Source of the DNA: a bacterium
GTDB taxonomy: Bacteria > DYJV01 > JALVYZ01
Assembly: GCA_027037705.1 (NCBI GenBank)
Contig: JALVYZ010000359.1
Coordinates: 1 to 7,172 of the forward strand
Direction: 5' to 3'
DNA length: 7,172 nucleotides
The position numbers and the translations under genes are program-made. Shown here piece by piece: positions 1 to 4,448 of the stretch. The stretch's first letter is position 1; every line of letters begins with the position of its first letter. A model generated the notes under the pieces. The model did not search any database. It saw only the letters and a list, made by a program, of their open reading frames with translations, and was not told the origin of the DNA.

Positions 1-1343
1 GCATTTATTTCAACTGATTTTTCAAATTCTGCTAAAGCTTCTAAAACTTTATCCATATCAATCTCATAACTATCCCTTACTGTCAGCAATCGTCCTGTTG
101 GGTGGCCTAAGATTGTTGTAAAAGGATTTTTAATAGCATTGATAATTCTATTAGTCATATCTTTCTTACTCATATTAAAAGAGGAATGCACTGAAGCAAT
201 TACAAAATCAAATTTTTCCAAAATATTATCTGGATAATCAAGTGAACCATCTTTTAATATATCTGATTCTATACCTTTAAAAATTTTGAATGGTGCATAT
301 TTTTCATTCAATCTCTCTATTTCCTCATGTTGTTTTTTTATATCATCTTCTGTAAGTCCATTTGCATAATAAGCACTTTTAGAATGATCTGATATTCCAA
401 CATATTTATAACCTCTTGAAATTAAGTATTTTACTATATCTTCAATACTCATTGTTCCATCAGAATAAGTTGTATGAACATGAAAAATCCCTTTGATATC
501 GGAATATCTTAAATAATTTTTTTCAAACTCAGAATTATCTTCTCTCATTTCAGGAATAATATATTCAGAATTATTAAATTTAAATATTTCAATTTCTGAT
601 TTCACTTCTTCTGGGATGTTATATTTTTCAACAAATTCTTGAGAGCCTGTTGTTAAAAATAACTTCCTAATAAAATCAGATCTATTTGAAGCAGTATATA
701 TTTCAAATTCTTTTTTATAATTTTTACAAATTTCTGTTAATTTTGCTTCATAATTTTTGAATGTAATAAATTCTAATTTTGAATAAACTTCACACTTTCT
801 TCTATAATCTCCAGTAAATGCAAAAAATATATTTTCTTTTTTAGCTCTTTCTCTAATTTCATTTAAAATTTCTTCATATTCAGCAATTGTAAATAGATTT
901 AAATTTTTTCTATAATTTTTAATTGCATTTAATATATTTTCCTGTATTTTTTTGCCAAATCCCTTTAAAATCAATAATCTATTCTCCTTGCAGGCATATT
1001 CAAGTTCACCAATAGAAGTTATACCAAGTTCTTTATATAAAATTTTTATTCTTTTCGCACCCAATCCCTTTAAATTTAATAATTCCTGAACTCCTTCTGG
1101 GATTTCTTTCTGGAGTGTTTCCAGCAAATTAGAAGTGCCTGTTTCAATTATCTCTTTTATAATTGAAAGTGTAGATTTTCCAATATTTTTTATTTTTTTT
1201 GAATTTATATCTTCTAAATTCTCTAAGCTTTCAATAGCCCTTGAGGCGTTTCTATATGCTCTAATTTTAAAAGAATTTTCATCTTTAATTTCAAGTAAAT
1301 CTGCAATTCTATTTAAAATTTTTGCTACATCTTTTTTAGTCAT
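1..1343 (-). CDS. polX: PolX-family protein (Pol beta-like core plus PHP domain), C-terminus cut by window edge, polymerase site degenerate
   Basis: Translating the minus strand from the ATG at 1343 gives 447 residues open to the window edge. An in-frame TAG at 1347-1349, two codons upstream, fixes the start, and the N-terminus (MTKKDVAKILNRIADL) matches the usual PolX beginning. In order: an 8-kDa-type N-terminal domain with helix-hairpin-helix turns at about 53-57, 92-98 (KGLGAKR) and 127-132 (KGFGKK), a short palm at about 170-240, a linker with the conserved PEMRED, then the PHP domain. Visible PHP ligands are H288, H290, D319, H320, E359, H386 and H414; the last Asp/His ligands fall outside. 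PolX proteins do gap-filling synthesis, with PHP giving 3'-5' exonuclease or phosphoesterase activity. Here the palm has GDYRR (178-182) where GSxRR is usual, and K189-L190-E191 where Asp-x-Asp binds metal; the third catalytic Asp is not identifiable. I infer that polymerase activity is lost. The part before PHP is about 45 residues shorter than in Bacillus subtilis PolX as I recall it. Confidence 0.9.
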   Translation of the reverse strand, partial: MTKKDVAKILNRIADLLEIKDENSFKIRAYRNASRAIESLENLEDINSKKIKNIGKSTLSIIKEIIETGTSNLLETLQKEIPEGVQELLNLKGLGAKRIKILYKELGITSIGELEYACKENRLLILKGFGKKIQENILNAIKNYRKNLNLFTIAEYEEILNEIRERAKKENIFFAFTGDYRRKCEVYSKLEFITFKNYEAKLTEICKNYKKEFEIYTASNRSDFIRKLFLTTGSQEFVEKYNIPEEVKSEIEIFKFNNSEYIIPEMREDNSEFEKNYLRYSDIKGIFHVHTTYSDGTMSIEDIVKYLISRGYKYVGISDHSKSAYYANGLTEDDIKKQHEEIERLNEKYAPFKIFKGIESDILKDGSLDYPDNILEKFDFVIASVHSSFNMSKKDMTNRIINAIKNPFTTILGHPTGRLLTVRDSYEIDMDKVLEALAEFEKSVEIN

Positions 1344-1656
1344 GATCTATATTTACTGTTTTATGACATTGCACACATTCTGTAAGCAGTTGATGTTCTT
1401 TGTTTTTTGGTAAAACTGTATGACATTGAAAACAATCTTGACCGCATGCATTTGATTCTGAATTTCCTAATAAGTCTTCTCCTTCTTTTCCACATCCTTT
1501 TTTATGACAATTAATACATGTTTTTATAATTTTATGTTGCTTTGGTTTTTCTAAATTTAAATCTGGATGACATTGCATACAAGAACCACCACAACAGAAA
1601 GCACTTATATTAAAAGCAAGAATTATTACAATTACAATAATAAATTTTCTAACCAT
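1336..1656 (-). CDS. Secreted small tetraheme c-type cytochrome (paired CXXCH type)
   Basis: This 106-residue protein has a basic start and a hydrophobic stretch at about 5-20, consistent with a Sec signal peptide. Four CxxCH heme-attachment motifs follow at C26-H30, C47-H51, C75-H79 and C94-H98, so four covalent hemes are expected in the periplasm or on the outer face of a membrane. The mature part is a tandem duplication of one diheme module (about 22-52 and 71-99), each reading CG-xx-CxQCH, a lone His (H41, H88) and CxxCHK. The lone histidines and H105 are candidate distal ligands. The layout resembles the 'doubled CXXCH' family, so electron transfer is the likely role; the partner is unknown. 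A strong Shine-Dalgarno precedes the ATG. A lipoprotein is possible because of C21/C22, but Phe at -1 fits a lipobox poorly. Its last 8 bp (ATGACTAA) overlap the start of the PolX gene, so the two are probably co-translated. Confidence 0.88.
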   Translation of the reverse strand: MVRKFIIVIVIILAFNISAFCCGGSCMQCHPDLNLEKPKQHKIIKTCINCHKKGCGKEGEDLLGNSESNACGQDCFQCHTVLPKNKEHQLLTECVQCHKTVNIDHD

Positions 1657-3106: not shown

Positions 3107-4096
3107 TTAATTTTCAAAAAATACTGAAAATTGCTTCCAAGCTTTTTTAAGCTCATCTTCATGCACAGTTGCTGCCCCTAACTTCCCAACTACTATCCCA
3201 GCAGCAATATTTGCTATTTTTGCAGAATTTATAACATCAAAATCCGCTGCCATTCCTAAAGTAAGAACACTTATAACTGTATCACCGGCACCTGTTACAT
3301 CATATACATCTCTTGCTATAGTAGGCAAATGAACATATTCATCTTTATTTTTAAAAAAAATGGCCATCCCTTTATCAGCAAGAGTTATAACTAAATAATC
3401 AGATTCAAATTTTTTTAATAAGTGATTCCCCCCATTTTTTAAATTTTTAAAATTTATTGGAAACCCTGCGGCAAAACTTGCTTCACTTAAATTTGGTGTT
3501 AATAAAGTTGGCTTCTTATAAATACCCATATTTTGATTTTTAGGGTCAACATTTACAATTTTATTATACCTTTTACATAAATTTATTATTAATTCAAAAC
3601 TCTCTTTAAAAATTACCCCTTTGCCATAATCTGAAATTATAACTGCATCTATCTCAGGAATATTATTTTCCAGATATTTTTGTAATTTTTTAAAAGTGCT
3701 CAAAAATAATCCATTATCTGACTCTCTATCAACTCTTACAATTTGTTGATTATTACCAATAATTCTTGTTTTTACAGTTGTCGTTCTATTTTTTTCAATA
3801 ATAATACCACCTGGGTCAATATTATTTTTATTTAAAATCTCTAATAATTTTTCTCCATTTAAATCATCACCTATTACTCCACAAATTTTTGCATTTCCAT
3901 TTAATGATAAAATATTATTCAAAACATTAGCACTTCCACCAAGCTTTAACTCTTCTTTCTCAACTCTAACAACTGGGACAGGAGCTTCTGGTGAAATTCT
4001 TGATACTTTTCCCCAAATGTATCTATCGAGCATTAAATCCCCAATTATTAAAATTTTCTTTTCTTTAATTCTATTCAAAAAATCTTCAATGAACAT
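3107..4096 (-). CDS. hldA: D-glycero-beta-D-manno-heptose-7-phosphate kinase (stand-alone kinase domain)
   Basis: This is a PfkB/ribokinase-family kinase of about 329 residues. It begins with the HldE/RfaE signature [20 protein letters not shown] (about 17-36) followed by [10 protein letters not shown] and the substrate-binding [10 protein letters not shown] (about 52-61). The ATP/anion-hole motif VTGAGDTV near 267-274 holds the catalytic Asp, and [10 protein letters not shown] lies near the C-terminus. It phosphorylates D-glycero-D-manno-heptose 7-phosphate at C1 in the cytoplasm, making the precursor of the ADP-heptose used in LPS inner core. Escherichia coli HldE is a 477-residue fusion with an adenylyltransferase; here only the kinase half exists, so a separate HldC is expected elsewhere. 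I chose the ATG at 4096; a TTG at 4099 would add one residue. Either way the start lies inside the end of the 120-residue upstream gene, implying coupling. Other heptose-pathway genes are not in view. Confidence 0.9.
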
Positions 4097-4448
4097 CAAG
4101 CCTTACTCCCTTAACAACTTTTCTAAAAATTTCTGGAAATAAATTTTTTAACTTTTCCAAACTTATTGAAGAATGGTAAAAATTACCTTTTTCATTCTCA
4201 ATAAATATTAAATACTCTTTATTTTTTAAATTTACAAATTTGCATTCAACTTCTTCATTTATAACCTGTATATCTTCAGGATACTCTTTTAATAAAATTC
4301 CAAAATAATCAATAATTGACTTTGCAACTCTATGAGTATAGGGGTATTGTAATTCTACTCCTTTTTGATTAACATAAACTTTTAAATCTTCAATATTATC
4401 TGGTTCCCAGAAAATAATCACAAGCTCGTTAAATTCTTTAATTTCCAT
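4086..4448 (-). CDS. Hypothetical 120-residue protein, overlapping hldA
   Basis: I do not recognise this family. The 120-residue product is soluble, with no signal peptide, membrane segment or metal-binding cysteine motif (one Cys, in the EVECKFVNL stretch). Alternating hydrophobic strands (ELVIIFWEP, KEYLIFIENEKG) and probable helices suggest a small alpha/beta fold. It looks like a real gene: it is uninterrupted and on the same strand as its neighbours. The start ATG at 4448 follows GGAAG at a usual distance; an ATG at 4459 is out of frame. Its TGA stop overlaps the hldA start by 11-14 bp. It is the first gene after the 324-bp repeat-filled spacer, so it probably opens a transcript with hldA and leuC. 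The coupling would permit a role linked to heptose metabolism, but that is only inference. Confidence 0.75.
   Translation of the reverse strand: MEIKEFNELVIIFWEPDNIEDLKVYVNQKGVELQYPYTHRVAKSIIDYFGILLKEYPEDIQVINEEVECKFVNLKNKEYLIFIENEKGNFYHSSISLEKLKNLFPEIFRKVVKGVRLDVH
4106..4112 (-). promoter_or_regulatory. Shine-Dalgarno of hldA
   Basis: AAGGGAG on the minus strand, inside the last codons of the upstream gene, lies nine bases before the ATG at 4096 and six before the TTG at 4099. Both starts are usable; a second AAGG at 4101-4104 is too close to either. Start-codon preference favours the ATG. Confidence 0.5.

Follow-up and report, generated by a model that had tools for sequence, protein, structure and literature searches.

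A bacterial PolX homologue with a degenerate palm, very probably a PHP nuclease that no longer polymerizes

A gene at the low end of the window (the whole stretch of 7,172 bp analyzed here) encodes a PolX-like protein in which the polymerase site appears broken and the PHP domain appears sound, and this raises the question of whether such a protein can still be a DNA polymerase and, if it is not, what it does. The first-pass annotation predicted a DNA-binding phosphoesterase or exonuclease that has given up polymerization and has kept its degenerate palm as a DNA or nucleotide sensor. Comparison with other PolX proteins leads us to regard it, with high confidence, as a noncanonical polymerase-dead bacterial PolX. 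The sensor part of the prediction does not survive the same comparison (see below).

The PolX gene and its N-terminal region

The window is exactly one contig of a draft assembly (496 contigs; genome 93% complete). The PolX frame (Table 1) leaves it at the low end, with its stop codon outside, and a search across the rest of the genome for the missing C-terminus found nothing. ORF analysis gives an ATG-initiated frame of 447 codons with no stops that continues past the contig end, in agreement with the uninterrupted frame reported earlier.

Table 1 Features of the PolX region and neighboring frames (window coordinates)
Feature	Position	Strand	Basis or remark
PolX-like protein, N-terminal 447 residues	3..1343	-	gene cut at contig position 1
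8-kDa/helix-hairpin-helix region, N-terminal, well conserved	903..1343	-	Pfam HHH_8 and HHH_5; boundary approximate
Degenerate, shortened palm	654..812	-	alignment, predicted strands; about 19 residues deleted ahead of TTGS
Truncated fingers segment	546..653	-	alignment; counted from the Tyr258-equivalent
PHP domain, residues 287-447 visible	3..485	-	Pfam, ligand alignment, PHP-phosphatase fold match
Small putative tetraheme cytochrome with four CxxCH motifs and a signal-like N-terminus	1336-1656	-	
120-aa protein	4086-4448	-	overlaps start of hldE-like kinase gene

Pfam identifies HHH_8 (residues 1-70), HHH_5 (86-142) and PHP (287-446) in these 447 residues and gives no above-threshold match to the polymerase-beta palm or thumb; for scale, the canonical PolX of a Syntrophaceae MAG (L032) gives a strong hit to the thumb model and a weak one, under the cut-off, to the palm model. 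The closest proteins of solved structure by phmmer are the PolXs of Deinococcus radiodurans (2w9m, 1.7e-59) and Thermus thermophilus (3au2, 2.1e-55), in alignments that span the N-terminal and PHP regions only. The 8-kDa/HhH and PHP domains thus lie in one chain that is kin to solved PolX proteins, as in bacterial PolX (PolX1: 8 kDa, polymerase core, PHP). In many genomes from the phylum of genome G040 an altered PolX is joined by separate open frames, about 150-400 aa long, whose similarity is confined to the N-terminal HhH region of PolX.

A structure model was built from four aligned sequences, which limits its quality, and is moderate (pTM 0.43; palm pLDDT about 44-80). When this model was compared with the PDB, the PolX structures of T. 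thermophilus and D. radiodurans scored Z about 19, and residues 282-447 matched PHP phosphatases with Z values of 13-16; matches over the full length have a high rmsd, and the modeled domain arrangement is therefore unreliable.

The polymerase region

The window protein was aligned with 52 further PolXs, among them the two of known structure from T. thermophilus and D. radiodurans, and the resulting 53 sequences comprise 18 altered and 35 canonical forms. In this alignment the catalytic triad of the window protein reads K/E/deleted, so that it does not have the three acidic palm residues of a canonical polymerase. As the first-pass annotation had read by eye, the canonical DxD position after GDYRR (residues 178-182) is occupied by K189 (AAA, 777-779), L190 and E191 (GAA, 771-773). 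E191 is a conservative change, with Glu also present there in D. radiodurans PolX and in many altered PolXs. The third catalytic Asp had been called unidentifiable, and the strand that bears it is indeed largely deleted; that statement is softened by E214, in the predicted strand 213-218, which is a possible stand-in that would make the site K-E-E.

The palm measures 53 residues from the GxxRR Gly to the Tyr258-equivalent, against 72 in T. thermophilus PolX, and this deletion of 19 matches the estimate of about 20 made from the sequence alone. The fingers, from the Tyr258-equivalent on, are also short (37 residues vs 56 in T. thermophilus PolX), a feature additional to the palm shortening noted at first. 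A different PolX (L005, 1477-3093, + strand) has a palm of 54 and fingers of 41 residues together with an intact D/D/D triad. All double-truncated PolXs in the published survey have altered triads (PMC9226535), and L005 therefore seems to depart from this rule, which makes it a candidate for a minimal polymerase.

The dNTP-binding motifs of the window protein, GDYRR and LTTGSQEFV, do not fit the canonical GSxRR and YFTGSKxxN. The change from GSxRR to GDxRR recurs in 13 of the 18 altered PolXs and in none of the 35 canonical ones, the position of Pol beta Asn279 is Val (hydrophobic in nearly all altered and in no canonical forms), and the Lys263-equivalent is Gln. Predicted secondary structure in the palm consists of strands at residues 174-177, 190-195 and 213-218 and a helix at 196-206. 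E191 and E214 thus each fall close to the beginning of a predicted strand and, if both were acidic ligands, a very weak residual activity would be conceivable. Residual or altered nucleotidyl transfer through such a K-E-E site is nevertheless extremely improbable in our judgment, given a Lys at the first ligand position, truncated fingers, missing dNTP contacts and the precedent of D. radiodurans PolX, whose A-E-E site is free of bound metal in the crystal structure and inactive (PMC9226535).

The PHP domain

All seven PHP ligands listed by the first-pass annotation (H288, H290, D319, H320, E359, H386 and H414) align with the ligand positions of PolX from T. thermophilus and from D. radiodurans, the former having Gln at the position of H288. 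The last two of the nine-ligand set, a C-terminal DxH, fall past the contig end and are present in L003, the full-length PolX of one other genome of the phylum. By motif and spacing, the DNA-path residues F389, R418, R423 and N447 correspond to B. subtilis F440, R469, R474 and N498, which are required for PHP nuclease activity in B. subtilis PolX.

Conservation among relatives

L003 is 53% identical to the window protein and has the triad L/Q/L, with fingers as short as those of the window protein and a palm that is unshortened. Between the two, 111 of 169 PHP positions and 74 of 134 N-terminal positions are identical, and only 14 of 53 in the palm; in comparison with canonical L032 the window protein is identical at 98/169 PHP positions and 9/53 palm positions. 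Identity is thus about 58-66% in PHP and 17-26% in the palm, and the palms of two canonical PolXs, L032 and L007, share 39 of 72 residues. This pattern of high PHP and low palm identity indicates selection on PHP and relaxed constraint on the palm.

It also bears on the idea that the palm is retained as a ligand sensor or a DNA-recognition module. A strand-helix-strand core is still predicted and GxxRR is invariant, as such a role would allow. The palm is, however, the least conserved part of the protein, it and the fingers change fastest, its deletion of about 19 residues differs between the phylum's two genomes, and the residues that contact the nucleotide are gone, so we consider the sensor proposal very unlikely.

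The degeneracy could in principle reflect misassembly or a decaying pseudogene, since the draft has many contigs and the gene reaches a contig end. The stop-free frame, the well-matched PHP domain with all its visible ligands and the comparable palm decay seen in a second, independent genome oppose this so strongly that we give it almost no weight. Judged from these two genomes, triad loss is common to the phylum lineage and not an artefact; the Lys/Glu replacement that the first-pass annotation proposed looking for in close relatives is absent from L003 as specific residues (K/L/E) and is present as loss of the site.

Origin of the loss

A tree was computed from N-terminal and PHP columns, with the palm left out. 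The window protein and L003 are sisters (100/99), and the pair is adjoined by the canonical PolX L007 (98/92). Other altered PolXs branch apart from them: one clade unites the rhizobial plasmid PolXs with that of D. radiodurans, another holds the altered forms from the phylum of G040, and a third is formed by L004. The hypothesis that the altered PolXs in the sample all arose once is rejected (p-AU 3e-77); grouping the window protein and L003 with L004 has p-AU 0.028, and grouping them with the Deinococcus/rhizobial clade is borderline at 0.052. The tree placement and the rejected single origin make it likely that palm decay in this phylum, represented by two genomes, was independent, which suggests one more such loss; the polymerase site is known to have been lost several times among PolXs (Prostova et al., PMC9226535).

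Phage and plasmid collections contain remote homologues of the window protein only, the best being 36-38% identical at full length. Two conjugative Bradyrhizobium plasmids (L063 and L064) have an altered-triad PolX near genes for a MOSC-domain protein, LigD ligase, RNase HII and topoisomerase IB, and an IMG/VR contig (L074, 2453-4168, + strand) encodes a PolX whose triad is apparently altered (SRLDVLV after GEYRR).

Genomic setting

In the window the PolX gene is accompanied by leuC, an hldE-like kinase gene and the gene of a small CxxCH protein (Table 1). The 3' end of the CxxCH-protein frame shares 8 bases with the PolX start, an overlap that suggests coupled translation of the two. The 120-aa protein has no Pfam or NCBIfam match. 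Neighbors of PolX, here and at L003, give no hint of a dedicated repair operon.

Searches of the 93%-complete genome (G000) detected no Ku (PF02735), LigD polymerase (TIGR02778), Nfo or Xth, and control genomes matched as expected. Ku and LigD genes occur in 46.5% of altered-PolX genomes, a tendency and not a requirement (PMC9226535), and a link of the window PolX to NHEJ is set aside because both Ku and LigD polymerase went undetected. The sister genome that carries L003 has Nfo, and Xth was not found there. With Nfo and Xth undetected, the PHP domain of PolX may carry out AP-site or 3'-end repair in the source organism, a suggestion that depends on the completeness of the assembly. The stronger proposal, that palm decay here took place separately from the known clusters and that a dead PolX is the main AP-site and 3'-end BER enzyme of an organism with no detectable NHEJ, Nfo or Xth, seems to us unlikely.

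Probable function

The window protein itself shows that the DxD pair and the dNTP contacts are lost, that palm and fingers are truncated and that the visible PHP ligands are intact. Its lack of polymerase activity and its exonuclease activity are read across from experiments on members of the noncanonical class. That class was described in 2022 by Prostova et al. (PMC9226535), who found altered triads in 27.5% of prokaryotic PolXs, often with palm or fingers deletions and with PHP highly conserved. The PolXs of D. radiodurans (AEE) and D. gobiensis (ARE) are inactive as polymerases and are efficient Mn-dependent 3'-5' exonucleases, and the D203A change in B. subtilis PolX abolishes polymerase and leaves exonuclease (PMC9226535). 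A 2026 survey likewise found PHP better conserved than the polymerase site (PMC12926913).

Taking domain-wise conservation, relatives and this published enzymology together, the window PolX very probably has no polymerase activity and keeps its PHP nuclease, as was first predicted. Since every testable structural trait fits the class, PHP-catalyzed 3'-end processing with HhH DNA binding is the most likely mechanism. The N-terminal 8-kDa/HhH domain would probably bind nicked or gapped DNA, and the PHP domain would trim or clean 3' ends as a Mn-dependent 3'-5' exonuclease and 3'-phosphatase/phosphodiesterase, with AP endonuclease a further possible activity; palm and fingers would be decayed remnants that serve at most as a structural linker.

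Product names mislead here, as the first-pass annotation foresaw. L003, for all its L/Q/L triad, clears the NCBIfam cut-off for PolX polymerase/exonuclease, and altered-triad plasmid homologues are annotated with that product name; "DNA polymerase" would be the wrong reading of such genes.

Comparison with known PolX proteins

The polymerase-dead class was already published in 2022, and what is new here is a strongly truncated member from a sparsely sampled phylum; it agrees with the published view that the nuclease, not the polymerase, is the conserved function of bacterial PolX. The substituted triad of the noncanonical class and the palm and fingers deletions known from many but not all of its members are present together in the window protein. 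Like other noncanonical PolXs (PMC9226535; 2w9m and the short-palm rhizobial PolXs), it combines an altered triad and short palm with conserved PHP and 8-kDa domains and a hydrophobic Asn279 site, and it shares short fingers with part of the class. It differs in its K/E/deleted triad, in a palm and fingers that have each lost about 19 residues relative to T. thermophilus PolX, and in sitting, with L003, beside canonical L007 and outside the altered clades. With canonical PolX (T. thermophilus 3au2, B. subtilis) it shares the domain order, HhH, and the PHP domain and its ligands, but it lacks the triad, the dNTP pocket and the full-length palm and fingers. The PolX-like proteins of Actinobacteria (PMC12926913) are similar in keeping a PHP nuclease with no working polymerase; they have lost the polymerase region and part of the 8-kDa domain, whereas the window protein retains a palm remnant and a full N-terminal domain.
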